NCBI RefSeq assembly: GCF_002156965.1
Contig: NZ_CP021324.1
Coordinates: forward strand, 1,190,681 to 1,254,680
Origin: Candidatus Nitrosomarinus catalina
Lineage (GTDB): Archaea > Thermoproteota > Nitrososphaeria > Nitrososphaerales > Nitrosopumilaceae
Direction: 5' to 3'
DNA: 64,000 nt
A program made the translations under genes and the position numbers. The notes below the pieces were generated by a model. The model saw nothing but the letters and a program-made list of their open reading frames with translations. It was not told where the DNA came from and did not search any database. This document shows positions 46,824-58,302 of the stretch, piece by piece; the stretch's first letter is position 1; each line of letters begins with the position of its first letter.

Positions 46824-49475
46824 TTATCCAGAGGTACAACCACTGTATCCACATTCAATACAGATACTACAACCTTCTACAAAGACAAGATTATTTTTAC
46901 ACGTAGGACACAATCGTTCCTCTGCAACTTCTTCTTGTTTTGGAGCTTCAATCTTTATTTCTTCATCATGGACTTTTAGTGCAAGTGATGCACCAACTTG
47001 TGTTTTGATGTATTTGTTTGTAATATTTTCATGGATGTAAGATAGCATGTATTCACTTGGTGCAACTTCAAATGTTTTTTCTGCATTCTCACTTGTCATG
47101 TGAAGAACTTGTTTATGTCTAGAGCCATCACGGTATACAGTCATACCTTTGAGTCCAAGTTCATGGGCTAACAAGTATGATGATTTGACATCTTCAGCTG
47201 TTACATCATATGGCATGTTGATTGTCTTTGCAATTGCGTTTCCAATCCAATCTTGCCATACACTTTGAGCCATAAGGTGATCAGCCCAGTGTATATCCAT
47301 TGCAGTTACAAACACATCTTGCATCCATTGTGGAATTTCATCAATTCCACTCAATGAACCATAGTTGTCTGCAATCTTTTCAAGAATTTCATCTGTGTAA
47401 AGACCTTCATCTCTAAGAGCTTCTTCAAGAATCTTATTTGTGTAAAAGAATCTTCCAACAGTTACTCTTTTCTCAAATACAAGTGCAAATGCCGGTTCCA
47501 TTCCATTTGAACAATCTGCAATCATAGAAAGGGTACCAGTTGGTGCTACTGTAGTAGTTAGTACATTTCTAATTCCATGCTTTTTGATTTTTTCAATTAA
47601 TGGACCCCATTCAAATGAATGAGCACTTTTAGATTTTTCATAATATCCAGCTACTGGGATTTTACCTTCAGGATATTCAGTCTTGGAACATAATGGGAAC
47701 TCACCACGAGATGTAGCAAGTGCAACACTTTCTTCCATAGAATAGTAAGTCAATGCTTCAGAGAGTTTTGATTGGAGTTCATATCCTTCTTTGGAATTGT
47801 ATGGAATTTTGAGTTTGTATAATAGATCTGCTACACCCATTACTCCCAATCCAATTCTTCGAGACTCTTTTGAGGCTACATTGATTTCAGGAACTGGATA
47901 ATGATTTACATCGATGATATTGTCCAAAAATCTTGTTGTTTTTCTAATGATTTCTTCATATCCTTGCCAATCAAATTCGTAAGAACCATCTGCTTGTTTT
48001 TGCGCATAGTTTACTAAGTTGATTGAACCTAAATTACAAGACTCGTATGGGTAAAGACTTTGTTCACCACATGGATTTGTTGCTCTAAGTGGAGCTTGTC
48101 TTGCTTTAGCAAATACATTGTATTTGTTAATTTGATCAAAGAAGATCAATCCAGGTTCTGCACTTTTCCATGCAGATAATGCAATTAAATCAATTAATTG
48201 ATGTGCGTTAATTTCTTTAACTGGTTTTCTATCACGTGGACTTCTTAAGACATAATTTCCATCTTCAGTATTTACAAGTGCATTCCAGAAATCTTCCCAA
48301 ATACCAACACTGACATTAAAGTTTTCTAAAACACCAGGTTCTGTTTTGTTTGTAATGAATTTTTCAACGTCAGGATGCCATGCTTCAATAATTCCCATGT
48401 TTGCACCACGTCTTTTACCACCTTGTTTAACAACTTCAGTAACTGTATTGATGATGTTCATGAAAGATACTGGACCAGATGCAACACCAGAAGTTGATGC
48501 AACAATATCTCCTTCTTCACGAAGATCAGAATAATTAATTCCAACACCGCCACCAGATTTGAAAATTAATGCAGCATCAGAAGTAGATTTCATAATCTCT
48601 TCCATACCATCATTCATTCCAAGTACAAAGCATGCAGATAGTTGTCCTAATCTTCCACCAGCATTCATCATTGTCGGTGAATTTGGCAAAAAGTTTTGTG
48701 CTGTCATCATTTCAAAGTATTCAGTAATTCTATCAGAATAAACTTCAAGTTTTTTTGCTGCTAATAATGTCAAAAGATCTTTGAAACTTACTTTCATTTG
48801 ACCTTTGTTAGCAAGTGTGACATAATGATTGATCAAAGATCTAAAATGCCACTTGTTGAAGAAATAATCTCCTACTTTGAATTTATAATCAAAAGCATCT
48901 AATTTTTCAAGATAAGATTTAGCTTCATCTACATCTTGATTGTTATTACCAGATTTATCAAATATCTGAGAATCATATAGCATATCTCCAATTCCAACTA
49001 AAATTGCTACTCTCTCAAACATTTGTGTTGGAGTCTCGATAATTTCACTTTTTGAGTTTCTAAAGAGGTATCTTGAGGCTAAAACTCTCAAACAATTAAG
49101 ATCAAATTTCTTTGAAACTGGATCCAATGATTTTAGGTTTAAAACTCTCATCTTCTCATCTCTGAGTTTTCGTCTTTCGTGTCTGTAAACTATGTAAGAT
49201 TTTGCGATATCACTATTACCACTATCAATCAAAGTTGATTCTACAATATCTTGAATATCCTCTACAGTTGGTGATTTTTCGCTTGTAAATCCTTGTTCAA
49301 CAAGTTTGTTTAGCACTTCTCCTGCTAGTTTATCTGCAACACCACGGTCGGCTTTGGAGGTGGCGGCTAATGCCTGGTATATGGCATTTGAAATTTTATC
49401 TAAATCGAAAGCCGTAACTGTACCATTACGTTTACGGATCTCATTGATCGTATTTTCTATTTGTGAATTATCCAT
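46824..49475 (-). CDS. nrdJ: Ribonucleoside-diphosphate reductase, class II (adenosylcobalamin-dependent)
   Basis: The enzyme reduces ribonucleotides to deoxyribonucleotides with B12. The product is 883 residues from the ATG at 49475, chosen because GGAG lies 8 bp upstream and a TATA box at a fitting distance; a start at 49493 is also open. An ATP-cone spans about 10-95. The catalytic barrel contains NSPTMMNAGG, FKSGGGVGINYS, NPCGEQSLYPYESCNLGSINL and TVAPTGTLSMIADCSNGMEP, with the active-site Cys residues. The tail CPTCKNNLVFVEGCSICIECGYSGC binds zinc or carries redox Cys. No small radical subunit is nearby, fitting class II. Confidence 0.95.
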   Translation of the reverse strand: MDNSQIENTINEIRKRNGTVTAFDLDKISNAIYQALAATSKADRGVADKLAGEVLNKLVEQGFTSEKSPTVEDIQDIVESTLIDSGNSDIAKSYIVYRHERRKLRDEKMRVLNLKSLDPVSKKFDLNCLRVLASRYLFRNSKSEIIETPTQMFERVAILVGIGDMLYDSQIFDKSGNNNQDVDEAKSYLEKLDAFDYKFKVGDYFFNKWHFRSLINHYVTLANKGQMKVSFKDLLTLLAAKKLEVYSDRITEYFEMMTAQNFLPNSPTMMNAGGRLGQLSACFVLGMNDGMEEIMKSTSDAALIFKSGGGVGINYSDLREEGDIVASTSGVASGPVSFMNIINTVTEVVKQGGKRRGANMGIIEAWHPDVEKFITNKTEPGVLENFNVSVGIWEDFWNALVNTEDGNYVLRSPRDRKPVKEINAHQLIDLIALSAWKSAEPGLIFFDQINKYNVFAKARQAPLRATNPCGEQSLYPYESCNLGSINLVNYAQKQADGSYEFDWQGYEEIIRKTTRFLDNIIDVNHYPVPEINVASKESRRIGLGVMGVADLLYKLKIPYNSKEGYELQSKLSEALTYYSMEESVALATSRGEFPLCSKTEYPEGKIPVAGYYEKSKSAHSFEWGPLIEKIKKHGIRNVLTTTVAPTGTLSMIADCSNGMEPAFALVFEKRVTVGRFFYTNKILEEALRDEGLYTDEILEKIADNYGSLSGIDEIPQWMQDVFVTAMDIHWADHLMAQSVWQDWIGNAIAKTINMPYDVTAEDVKSSYLLAHELGLKGMTVYRDGSRHKQVLHMTSENAEKTFEVAPSEYMLSYIHENITNKYIKTQVGASLALKVHDEEIKIEAPKQEEVAEERLCPTCKNNLVFVEGCSICIECGYSGCTSG

Positions 49476-49481
49476 TATAAT

Positions 49482-49516
49482 ATCTCCTACCATAGTAGAA
49501 AACTAGTATCTATAAA
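49482..49516 (-). promoter_or_regulatory. nrdJ promoter: TATA box and Shine-Dalgarno
   Basis: On the minus strand TTTATAG (49516-49510) is a TATA-type box; transcription would begin near 49486. GGAG at 49487-49484 lies 8 bp before the ATG at 49475. This supports the shorter NrdJ start and a very short leader. Confidence 0.5.
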
Positions 49517-49604
49517 CTTTCAACAGAATTTGTTTGAAATTTTGGTTGAACATTTTTTACAACGCTCCAATGTTAATCGTAGTGGTACAAAATCATAAAA
49601 TGTT

Positions 49605-49645
49605 AAACGAGTATCGTATAATTAAATAGATGACAACAAACGAGT
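49605..49645. repeat. Paired AAACGAGT elements upstream of nrdJ
   Basis: AAACGAGT occurs at 49605-49612 and 49638-49645, 33 bp apart, that is about three helical turns. The 242-bp gap upstream of nrdJ is otherwise AT-rich with no open frame. The elements could be operator sites for the adjacent HTH/ATP-cone protein. They lie about 95 bp upstream of the proposed TATA box, so the link is tentative. Confidence 0.35.
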
Positions 49646-49717
49646 TAATAATTATCAGAACTTACTCCATACTCTCATTACGATGATCGCATTTAGAATT
49701 GGAACTTAATACAATAA

Positions 49718-51886
49718 CTAGACAACATATGGGGATTTACATTTTGGACACTTGTCTTCAAATGGTTCATCCTTAAATCCACACTCACCACAGATAGGAG
49801 TTGCTCTTACAAGTTTAAATGATGGAACTAGTTCTGCAGTTTTTTCAATTGATTTTTTGACTTCATCGACTTTCAAGTTTTTATCAATATCTAAAGTTAC
49901 AAGCAAGCCACCATTGAGTAATTTTGAGATTTTATTGGACTCAGAAATTATTTCAGACTTTGGAGTATATTCATCAATTTCTGAAGCATTAATCACAGTA
50001 CCTTGAGAATAAAAGTCACTTTCCATAGAATTAAGACTAGAATTTTTGCCGTATTTTTCACCATCTAGAGTAGCAAAACGAGATGAACCCTCTGTTTCAG
50101 TCATACAAATAGTCACATTGTCGCCTAATTCTTTACCCTTTTTGGCGCCAACATCAACTGCAGTTTCAATAACTTTGTGAAGCACAGCACGACCATCCTT
50201 ATTGTCTTTAAAGCCTAAAATGTTGAAAATAGACTCCCTAAGACCAACTAGATTTATGACCAAAGAAACAGAACTTCTTTGCATATATTGAGTATTTTTA
50301 GCAAGAATAGGATTGAGTCCTCTTCGGGTTAAATCTGAGATTTCTTTCTTTCTAAGTGCCATTGAAGCCAATGCAGGTTTCATTAGTAATGCTAATCTTG
50401 CTCTAAAGTAAGTCTCATCTTTGTTTGATTCAAATGCCAATCTAGGAAGGTTAATGGAAACAGATTGCAAATTGATTGCAAGTGAATTAGTAGATTTTGA
50501 AGAACCATTAGTTACTCCGCTACTTGCAGTTTGACCTTTGGCAATCATTACTTTACCACCAAGTAATAATATTTCAGAAATTGATTGTGATACATCAGTG
50601 ATCTTTCCTTTTTCATTATCAATTATCAAACCAATTTTTGGTATTGGTGTAATTGCAACATAGTTTTTGTATGCATTAATGATTGAATGAATTATTTTTG
50701 TATCAGAGCCTAGTTGTAATCTAATTGATATGTTTGTACTAGTTTTATTATATTTAGAAGTAGTAGAAGCAGTTGCAAATGTATTAGTTAATTGTTCTTC
50801 TAGTTCTGGAAGTGATTTAGAATGTTTTGCAAACACTGCAACTAATCCATCTAGTACAACTTCCTTTGAAGCCTCCTTTGATAAAAGTGAAATTAAAACA
50901 GACAAAGAAGTTGTAATTTCATTTAGTTGTTTTGAAACATTGATTCTTGATACATCAAGATATTTTCCTCCAAGATCAAGTCCATCATCAAGTAATTCTT
51001 TTGCATTTACAAATATTGTGTCAGGAATCATAGACCAAACTCCAGGATTTGAAATATGTATATCTCCAGATAAGTGATTGTCAGCTACATCTTTTGGTAA
51101 AACGTTTGTTAACAAATGTTCAGCAAATATTTTTTGACCAGTGTTAAACAAAAGACCTTCAGCACCATTATCAACATTGTCTAAATTAGAAACCATTTCT
51201 TGAACATCATAAACAGGCATGCCTAGGCGTGCAAGTTTGTTTCTGTATTCTTCATGACCGTGTTCTAAAAGAACAGAATTTACCATATCACGAATTACTG
51301 CGCCTGTAAGATAGGTGGTTTGATACTTGTAGATTCTATTTTCAACTTCTTCAGTAATCTTTTGTGCTAATTCTAGTGGAAGGCTGCCTTCACGTACTAG
51401 TGATTGAATAATTTTATGAGAATTAAATTCTTCAATGGATTCGCCAGATGTTCTGACATACATTTTTCCACTTTCAATAATTGATCTTTCTTCAATTTGT
51501 CTGGCTAAACTTAAAACAAGTTTTCCAAGATTAGTGATTGTATAACGTCTTTCAGATTTGTTAAGTGCAACTAGTGATTGTCTAAGTAATTTTCTCAAGT
51601 GATATGCAAATTTTCCACTTTCTTTTTTAGATTTGAAACCAGCTAATGATTTTAGCTCAGAATATGTTAATGGTCCTTTAGAGTTTAAAATTCTAAGAAT
51701 ATCAATTCTATTAGGACTTGCCATGACAGAGAAGATCATTCTGACACGTTTTGATGTGGATTGTAAAATTCCACCACGTTTTGAATCAGAGTCGTCGTCG
51801 ATATCAGAATCTAAATCTGCATCTAGATCGTCATCATCAGAATCTAAATCCATATTCATTTCTAATTCTTCTTCGTTCATTGTCAT
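49718..51886 (-). CDS. HTH / ATP-cone / inactive NrdD-like protein, candidate nucleotide-sensing regulator
   Basis: About 722 residues, in order: an acidic N-terminus (Asp repeats, about 10-35); an ArsR-like winged helix (about 45-125, MASPNRIDILRILNSKGPLTYSEL); an ATP-cone (about 140-230, VRTSGESIEEFNSHKIIQSL); and a long NrdD-like region (HLSGDIHISNPG, TETEGSSRFATLD) ending in a four-Cys zinc ribbon. Only five cysteines exist in the whole protein, four of them in the ribbon. The protein stops just after it, so the glycyl-radical loop and thiyl cysteine of class III reductases are missing. It probably senses ATP/dATP and controls nrd genes. ATG 51886 is chosen; 51898 and 51880 are alternatives. 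Confidence 0.88.
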   Translation of the reverse strand: MTMNEEELEMNMDLDSDDDDLDADLDSDIDDDSDSKRGGILQSTSKRVRMIFSVMASPNRIDILRILNSKGPLTYSELKSLAGFKSKKESGKFAYHLRKLLRQSLVALNKSERRYTITNLGKLVLSLARQIEERSIIESGKMYVRTSGESIEEFNSHKIIQSLVREGSLPLELAQKITEEVENRIYKYQTTYLTGAVIRDMVNSVLLEHGHEEYRNKLARLGMPVYDVQEMVSNLDNVDNGAEGLLFNTGQKIFAEHLLTNVLPKDVADNHLSGDIHISNPGVWSMIPDTIFVNAKELLDDGLDLGGKYLDVSRINVSKQLNEITTSLSVLISLLSKEASKEVVLDGLVAVFAKHSKSLPELEEQLTNTFATASTTSKYNKTSTNISIRLQLGSDTKIIHSIINAYKNYVAITPIPKIGLIIDNEKGKITDVSQSISEILLLGGKVMIAKGQTASSGVTNGSSKSTNSLAINLQSVSINLPRLAFESNKDETYFRARLALLMKPALASMALRKKEISDLTRRGLNPILAKNTQYMQRSSVSLVINLVGLRESIFNILGFKDNKDGRAVLHKVIETAVDVGAKKGKELGDNVTICMTETEGSSRFATLDGEKYGKNSSLNSMESDFYSQGTVINASEIDEYTPKSEIISESNKISKLLNGGLLVTLDIDKNLKVDEVKKSIEKTAELVPSFKLVRATPICGECGFKDEPFEDKCPKCKSPYVV

Positions 51887-52009
51887 GACTAAGATCAAGT
51901 ATAGGAGTAAATAAGACTTATGACTTGAATGATTCTAATAAAATAAAATAAAATATTGCAATGTAATAAAAAATATTAGAAAAAATATATAAAAAAGATC
52001 ATGGTGTGA

Positions 52010-52171
52010 TCATTTTTCTTCTACATCAAGTGAAAATTCAGATGTAGAAAGCTTTTGTCCACAAGACGGACACTTACCATTAGTAGGATTCAAAACATCT
52101 TTTAATGATTTTAACATTTTCATATCTTTGATCTTTTCTCCACATTTTCCACACGTTATTTCTACAGACAT
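52010..52171 (-). CDS. 53-residue zinc-ribbon protein
   Basis: A 53-codon frame from ATG 52171 to the TGA at 52010 encodes MSVEITCGKCGEKIKDMK, a Lys-rich linker, then NGKCPSCGQKL and an acidic end. The two CxxC pairs about 25 residues apart make a classic zinc ribbon. It lies between the NrdD-like regulator and the DUF35 gene on the same strand. The partner is unknown; such mini ribbons often bind RNA polymerase or the ribosome. Confidence 0.75.
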   Translation of the reverse strand: MSVEITCGKCGEKIKDMKMLKSLKDVLNPTNGKCPSCGQKLSTSEFSLDVEEK

Positions 52172-52240
52172 AAAATAATGAGATTTTTAAAATAATTAAG
52201 AATCTATTCTGATTTTTTTTAATAATTCAAACAAATATTT

Positions 52241-52606
52241 TTACTGTTTTTCTATGATGATTCCTCTTTCATCAAAACCAGTGATTTTTGCTCTAGTTCC
52301 AACAGGTAAATCATCAGGAGTTGCAATTCCTCCCATAAATCCAGAAATTCTCAATTCTGCATTATCTAATTGGAGTACTACAAAAGCATATGGAGTATGT
52401 TTTTCAAATCCTGCAGGCGGTACCGTGATAATAGTATATGTAGCAATTGAGCCTACACCCTCTAAAATAGTGTCTTCAAATCCTTTACTTCCACATTTTT
52501 GGCAGTAATATACTGTGGATAAATGGAGATGACCGCAACTTGAACATTTGTGAGTTAAAACTTTGCCTTCTTTTGCATTTTCAATCATTTGTTCTTCGAC
52601 AGACAT
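52241..52606 (-). CDS. DUF35 OB-fold/zinc-ribbon protein, thiolase partner
   Basis: The protein of about 121 residues has an N-terminal zinc ribbon (HKCSSCGHLHL...YYCQKCGSKG, about 19-42) and an OB-fold (about 48-118, VGSIATYTIITVPP...YAFVVLQLDNAELRISGF). I chose the ATG at 52606 (MSVEEQMIENAKEG), 1 bp after the thiolase stop, instead of the overlapping frame from 52657. DUF35 proteins form complexes with acetoacetyl-CoA thiolase and HMG-CoA synthase in archaea and channel CoA intermediates. Confidence 0.92.
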   Translation of the reverse strand: MSVEEQMIENAKEGKVLTHKCSSCGHLHLSTVYYCQKCGSKGFEDTILEGVGSIATYTIITVPPAGFEKHTPYAFVVLQLDNAELRISGFMGGIATPDDLPVGTRAKITGFDERGIIIEKQ

Positions 52607-57906: not shown

Positions 57907-58302
57907 TTGGAAAATTATGAAAAAGTTTTAGAACATATTAAAAAAAATCCAGGACAAACACAAGCACAGATTACACACAGACTAGAAATTCCACAATCCA
58001 CAGTAAAATATCATTTATTGGTTTTAGGTAAAGAAAATAAAATTTTTTCTGAAAAGTTATTCAAAACTCATTATTTTCCAATAGGAATAAGTGATGAATT
58101 AAAAATTGAATCTTGCATTAAATCAAATTATAATTTAAATGTAATTTTTGAAATGTGTAAAAATGAAAAGTCACTTGATGAAATTGCAGAATCTTGCAAT
58201 ATTTCAAAGAGTATGGCATCAAAAAGATTGCAAATTTTGGAATCACTTGATACAATTAAGAAAATTAAGGTAGAGAAGAAAATTAAATTTTGTAGAAATT
58301 AA
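57907..58302 (+). CDS. Transcriptional regulator with two winged-helix motifs
   Basis: The 131-residue protein starts at a TTG at 57907, with TTTTATTAAT 20-28 bp before it as TATA box. The first winged helix is at about 8-60 (NPGQTQAQITHRLEIPQSTVKYHLLVL), typical of archaeal MarR/ArsR-like regulators. A second helix-turn-helix lies at about 88-118 (KSLDEIAESCNISKSMASKRLQIL). No ligand domain is visible. It is divergent from the beta-propeller operon and convergent with the gene at 58320. Both neighbours share an operator-like element, so it probably controls them. Confidence 0.85.
   Translation: MENYEKVLEHIKKNPGQTQAQITHRLEIPQSTVKYHLLVLGKENKIFSEKLFKTHYFPIGISDELKIESCIKSNYNLNVIFEMCKNEKSLDEIAESCNISKSMASKRLQILESLDTIKKIKVEKKIKFCRN

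Follow-up and report, generated by a model that had tools for sequence, protein, structure and literature searches.

Bacterial NrdR, the described regulator closest to the protein considered here, is a factor of ~150 aa that binds DNA through an N-terminal Zn ribbon, at paired NrdR boxes preceding RNR (ribonucleotide reductase) genes, and carries no RNR body. Nucleotide binding by NrdR has been reported to suffer from mutation of V48, E56 or K62, and F58 is situated in the adenine-recognising loop (PMC9110341). NrdR is rare in archaea (PMC12176259), and how dNTP supply is controlled in archaea lacking it was not settled in the literature we found. Our literature search, conducted mostly without subscription papers, returned no description of an archaeal HTH-ATP-cone protein or of a dead NrdD acting as regulator.

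Here we analysed a 64,000-nt stretch of the Candidatus Nitrosomarinus catalina genome (the window), in which a 722-aa protein encoded next to the class II RNR gene nrdJ combines a winged helix, an ATP-cone and a body resembling class III RNR (NrdD). We consider it probable, at about 0.75, that this protein acts as a transcription factor which senses nucleotides, controls RNR and dNTP/pyrimidine genes and was built from a dead class III RNR. Most likely, it represents a hitherto undescribed regulator of DNA-precursor genes.

Domain layout of the 722-aa protein

The reading frame extends on the minus strand from an ATG at 51886 to a stop codon at 49720-49718, exactly where the first-pass annotation had placed it. 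What that annotation had said of the layout was likewise borne out: the winged helix, the ATP-cone and the NrdD-like body are each matched in Pfam over cut-off, translation yields exactly five Cys residues (593, 699, 702, 713 and 716), four of them in a C-terminal zinc ribbon, with the chain ending 6 residues past the last ribbon Cys, and nrdJ, for which the gene had been named the upstream neighbour, indeed follows directly downstream in the same orientation. Residues 1-592 are devoid of Cys. Since this end point and these residue losses recur in Nitrosopumilales loci and across the phylum, a frameshift, a truncated copy or a lost C-terminus could be ruled out. The features of the locus are compiled in Table 1.

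Table 1. Features of the regulator gene and the nrdJ upstream region (positions in the window).
Feature	Position	Strand	Basis
Regulator gene (wHTH-ATP-cone-pseudo-NrdD, 722 aa)	49718..51886	-	ORF and relatives
Core-promoter-like element (CTTATTTA context), ~25 bp upstream of the regulator ATG	51907..51914	-	Conserved AAGTCTTATTTA
Winged helix-turn-helix, residues 44-139, ArsR/HlyU-like fold	51470..51757	-	Pfam, profile, model, conservation
ATP-cone, residues 142-222	51221..51463	-	PF03477 over cut-off (142-214)
Body resembling NrdD (class III RNR), catalytically dead, residues 241-694	49805..51166	-	NRDD, Foldseek, lost Cys/Gly
C-terminal C4 zinc ribbon (C699, C702, C713, C716)	49739..49792	-	NrdD glycyl-radical loop beyond ribbon absent
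Palindrome GCGATCATCGT in the regulator-nrdJ gap, candidate regulatory site	49680..49690	-	CGATNATCG counts
TTGTnAA-N-TTSAA element ~83 bp upstream of nrdJ, weak candidate operator	49546..49562	-	80/116
TATA-box-like TTTATAG of nrdJ	49510..49516	-	Conserved position
Class II (B12-dependent) RNR nrdJ with own ATP-cone, probable target	46824..49475	-	TIGR02504 over cut-off, PF03477

An AlphaFold2 model, built from a 59-row alignment of relatives (A1), reached a mean pLDDT of 83 and a pTM of 0.76, with pLDDT values below 50 only in the acidic N-terminus (1-41) and one short loop. In its N-terminal domain, helices are predicted at residues 44-54, 58-70, 75-82 and 87-102 and strands at 106-117, residues ~87-102 forming the recognition-helix region. 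Pfam places DUF7347 at residues 51-125 and also finds HTH_20, both over cut-off, and the N-terminus of the A1 profile matches HlyU structures of the ArsR type with E values of 3e-5 to 2e-4. For the body, the Pfam NRDD match reaches 98 bits (best stretch 467-718). Comparison of the middle region with NrdD by structure prediction and profile search had been set beforehand as a test, and a match was found: the top Foldseek hits of the model are class III RNRs (9d3x, E 1e-20; T. maritima 4col and T4 NrdD 1h79 with TM scores by target of 0.62 and 0.65, respectively), and the A1 profile recovers the same class III RNR proteins at E 1e-35.

Within the ATP-cone, V144, E152, F154 and K158 align with the NrdR residues V48, E56, F58 and K62, while K50/R51 of NrdR, which contact nucleotide at the inner site, are replaced and an invariant arginine (R145) stands one position earlier; judged from this alignment, nucleotide binding by the ATP-cone is likely but not certain. 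ORFs of ~95-115 aa that match NrdR over its ATP-cone part only (model positions 47-124) occur in many genomes of the phylum (G016, G042, G069, G131, G230, G232 and others) and possibly represent stand-alone ATP-cone proteins.

Upstream of the regulator gene, AAGTCTTATTTA is conserved across Nitrosopumilaceae, and the transcript is probably leaderless. Directly upstream lies a gene for a 53-aa Zn-ribbon-like protein (MSVEITCGKCGEK...KCPSCGQKL; 52010-52171, minus strand), conserved in every Nitrosopumilaceae upstream region inspected. Elsewhere in the window, 57907-58302 (plus strand) encodes a 131-aa protein with two winged-helix domains in succession.

Genes beside the candidate regulator and what they may imply

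In the host, an intergenic gap of ~240 bp separates the regulator gene from nrdJ. Across the phylum, a nucleotide-synthesis gene is found within 3 kb downstream of the pseudo-NrdD gene at 32 of 44 loci, corresponding to 20 of 29 families that are not independent of one another; by a rough chance expectation (a few target genes in ~1,700), a few per cent of the genomes would show such a neighbour. Neighbours were identified by NCBIfam, Pfam and, for pyrB versus argF, blast comparison. They comprise nrdJ in aerobes (f1, f2, f3, f17) and, elsewhere, live nrdD (f26, f36, f28), the dCTP deaminase gene dcd (4 and 77 bp downstream in f45 and f49, respectively) or pyrB/pyrI. The nrdJ, nrdD and dcd genes are always located downstream on the same strand, whereas in the families with pyrB and/or pyrI (f4, f10, f15, f20, f22, f27, f33, f41, f46, f48, f51) the nearest one is convergent, an orientation that by itself does not imply control; f3 and f26 likewise have pyrB inside the 3-kb range. 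Four kinds of neighbour point to several separate linkage events. Around one third of the families have no nucleotide-synthesis neighbour at all.

Two side observations concern these loci. In f26, a glutaredoxin gene is located between the dead and live NrdD genes (L127 6736-7098 and L128 7188-7496, both minus strand). In f11, f16 and f31, the regulator gene and argF, which encodes ornithine carbamoyltransferase, diverge at a distance of 30-80 bp (L142 6528-7478, L147 6462-7427, L195 438-1385, L196 481-1437, all minus strand), and the two genes possibly share a promoter; at L142 and L147 the neighbour had been a candidate for pyrB but is argF by blast comparison, so that both loci were left out of the pyrB set.

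The linkage could also be taken to mean that the protein is a regulatory subunit that adjusts the activity of the live reductase (NrdJ or NrdD) by binding to it; its winged helix would then be a protein-binding or accessory domain. The co-linearity with live RNR genes would fit this explanation, and mixed dimers of live NrdD and the RNR-derived body are conceivable in anaerobes. We nevertheless regard it as unlikely: no other part of the protein is as well conserved as the winged helix, which has kept its HlyU/ArsR-like fold, the partner switches between class II and class III while the pseudo-NrdD protein persists, NrdJ already possesses an ATP-cone of its own, and many family members are encoded away from any RNR gene.

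Alternatively, the protein might be a general transcription factor of pyrimidine and carbamoyl-phosphate metabolism (pyrB/pyrI, argF), with the RNR linkage being secondary. This would fit the 11 families in which pyrB or pyrI is an immediate neighbour and the divergent argF genes in f11, f16 and f31, as well as f4, where NrdR goes with nrdD and the pseudo-NrdD protein with pyrB. However, the convergent pyrB shares no promoter with the regulator gene, an RNR gene or dcd follows on the same strand in nine families (f1, f2, f3, f17, f26, f36, f28, f45 and f49), the ATP-cone is a sensor of the RNR type, and the window contains no pyrB near the regulator gene. All this makes a primary role in pyrimidine metabolism quite unlikely.

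Lost catalysis and conservation across the phylum

The catalytic residues were compared in an alignment of 44 pseudo-NrdD family members with 38 true NrdDs of the same phylum. The Cys corresponding to C79 is present in 38/38 live NrdDs versus 0/44 pseudo-NrdDs, the CC pair in 38/38 versus 1/44 at each position, and the radical Gly in all 33 live NrdDs that cover the region versus 2/44, the latter two probably being alignment noise. The first-pass annotation had claimed that the thiyl-radical Cys and the glycyl-radical loop are lost and that the protein is unable to act as a class III reductase; the alignment confirms the former, and with the catalytic residues absent the latter holds as well. 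A glycyl radical supplied by a partner, which had been named as a possible refutation, does not apply here, as the loss extends to the active-site Cys and such a partner could not restore catalysis.

Matches to the protein at E <= 1e-8 were found in 205 of 300 genomes of the host's phylum, within which the spread was surveyed, ~174 of them being strong (E < ~1e-34); in a profile search, ~44 of 61 phylum genomes had a match running from the winged helix onward into the rest of the protein. Pseudo-NrdD is thus a large, divergent family present across much of the phylum, with members of 550 to 860 aa. Several families of the sample lack a member (e.g., f5, f12, f14, f18, f21, f24), and in f11, f16, f31 and f32 the bodies are shortened and more eroded while winged helix and ATP-cone are kept. 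The first-pass annotation was supported in its NrdR-like reading but had under-called the scale, in that the family extends throughout the phylum and lies next to genes other than nrdJ as well. Two weak matches were considered as viral carriers, and neither is a full-length member. In the unrooted tree, dead and live groups fall on opposite sides of one branch (SH-aLRT 100), with the branching order within the dead group unsure owing to long branches.

Mean pairwise identity among 12 Nitrososphaeria sequences from families f1-f3 amounts to 0.91 for the winged helix and 0.76 for the ATP-cone, versus 0.41-0.47 for the body; the values for the zinc ribbon and the acidic tail are 0.42 and 0.30. 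This gradient argues that selection keeps DNA binding rather than catalysis, and we regard the contrast as the clearest sign that the protein functions in DNA binding and nucleotide sensing. A decaying or mis-annotated relic without function might account for a body that has drifted and, in some families, become shorter (550-665 aa), but the ORF is intact in the Nitrosopumilales loci and the DNA-binding and ATP-cone domains are under strong purifying selection, which renders this explanation very improbable. That the protein still works as a class III reductase with a radical from a partner, as its retained NRDD body and zinc ribbon might suggest, can practically be dismissed, because the dead clade has lost both active-site Cys positions and the Gly, the host has nrdJ, and the activase NrdG was not found over cut-off in the genome (weak matches of 35 and 19 bits versus a cut-off of 126).

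The regulatory reading and its relation to known systems

The reading as a nucleotide-sensing transcription factor thus rests on the domains, the fold matches of body and N-terminus, the lost catalysis, the one-branch split, the conservation gradient, the linkage, the absence of NrdR and the palindromes upstream of nrdJ; we have counted against it the replacement of K50/R51, the confinement of the palindromes largely to one lineage, the lack of genome-wide specificity of a relaxed element, the convergent pyrB/pyrI genes, the unlinked third of the families and the presence of NrdR in f4. DNA binding by the 722-aa protein and the identities of its ligand and operator are inferred. In the proposed mechanism, the winged helix would bind the promoter of the adjoining RNR gene (nrdJ in the host) or, in relatives, that of nrdD, dcd or pyrimidine genes, and the balance of ATP and dATP would be sensed by the ATP-cone. 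Having ceased to be an enzyme, the NrdD body would provide a dimerisation and allosteric scaffold that relays the nucleotide state to the DNA-binding domain, such that RNR expression would track dNTP supply. By analogy with NrdR, the sign of regulation would probably be repression at high dATP.

As to the operator, CGATNATCG occurs in 77 of 116 nrdJ-upstream regions versus 0.3 in shuffles and in 2/116 regions upstream of the regulator gene, and TATGANNNTCATA in 70/116 versus 0.1, with 0/116 upstream of the regulator gene; the exact 11-mer GCGATCATCGT has its single genome occurrence in the regulator-nrdJ gap. The TTGTnAA-N-TTSAA element (also given as TGTnAA-N-TTRA) was seen in 80/116 nrdJ-upstream regions versus 6.5 in shuffles and in 17/116 regions upstream of the regulator gene, yet its relaxed form (TTGTnAA..TTSAA) has fewer genome-wide matches than the reversed control and is hence not specific, for which reason no regulon was called. 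A TATA-like element is positioned at a median of -39 relative to nrdJ in 111/116 loci. As the near-invariance of the winged helix extends further than the conserved palindromes, which are for the most part restricted to Nitrosopumilaceae, we have not assigned an operator. The possibility that nrdJ is preceded by a B12 riboswitch or another described RNA regulator was checked with Rfam, which gave no match at 49400-52300.

The NrdR family model TIGR00244 finds no match in the host genome, the 722-aa protein included, and exceeds its cut-off in 22 of 300 phylum genomes, all belonging to f4. In most of the phylum the pseudo-NrdD protein could therefore fill the role of NrdR. Family f4 (L153, L155, L156, L157), in which a bacterial-type NrdR gene just upstream of live nrdD coexists with a pseudo-NrdD gene adjoining pyrB, indicates that the latter is not everywhere a simple NrdR substitute, and in f4 it probably does something complementary. 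A wider version of the proposal can be offered only tentatively: an ancient, phylum-wide factor family may have arisen when a class III RNR gained a winged helix and lost catalysis, with nucleotides being read both at the ATP-cone and at the retained specificity or substrate pocket of the dead barrel, so that total and balance of the dNTP pool would be reported to RNR and pyrimidine promoters. Should the regulatory reading be true, a regulator derived from a dead copy of the enzyme it regulates would clearly exemplify the conversion of a metabolic enzyme into a gene regulator and would offer experiments on ammonia-oxidising archaea a direct starting point. Public records naming such a protein 'anaerobic ribonucleotide reductase' would be wrong.

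Compared with known systems, the protein resembles ArsR/SmtB-HlyU regulators in its N-terminal DNA-binding domain, both in fold and in sequence, but scores below the cut-off of the ArsR/SmtB metalloregulator model (24 versus 55 bits), lacks Cys in the winged helix and thus a Cys metal site, and has a large RNR-derived sensor attached. With NrdD (TIGR02487 / PF13597) it has the body fold, the ATP-cone, the C4 zinc ribbon and an NLPR motif in common; unlike NrdD, it possesses neither active-site Cys nor radical Gly, stays far below the TIGR02487 cut-off (88 versus 326 bits), and its family has gained a winged helix and falls across one branch from live NrdD. The likeness to NrdR consists in an ATP-cone that probably senses nucleotides, with several matching residues though not K50/R51, joined to a putative DNA-binding module, and in linkage to RNR genes of any class; here, however, the putative DNA binder is a winged helix followed by a dead NrdD body of ~480 aa, and the Zn ribbon, of NrdD type, is located at the C-terminus. 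The best-supported reading is that the 722-aa protein is NrdR-like in its working but a member of neither the NrdR nor the NrdD family.
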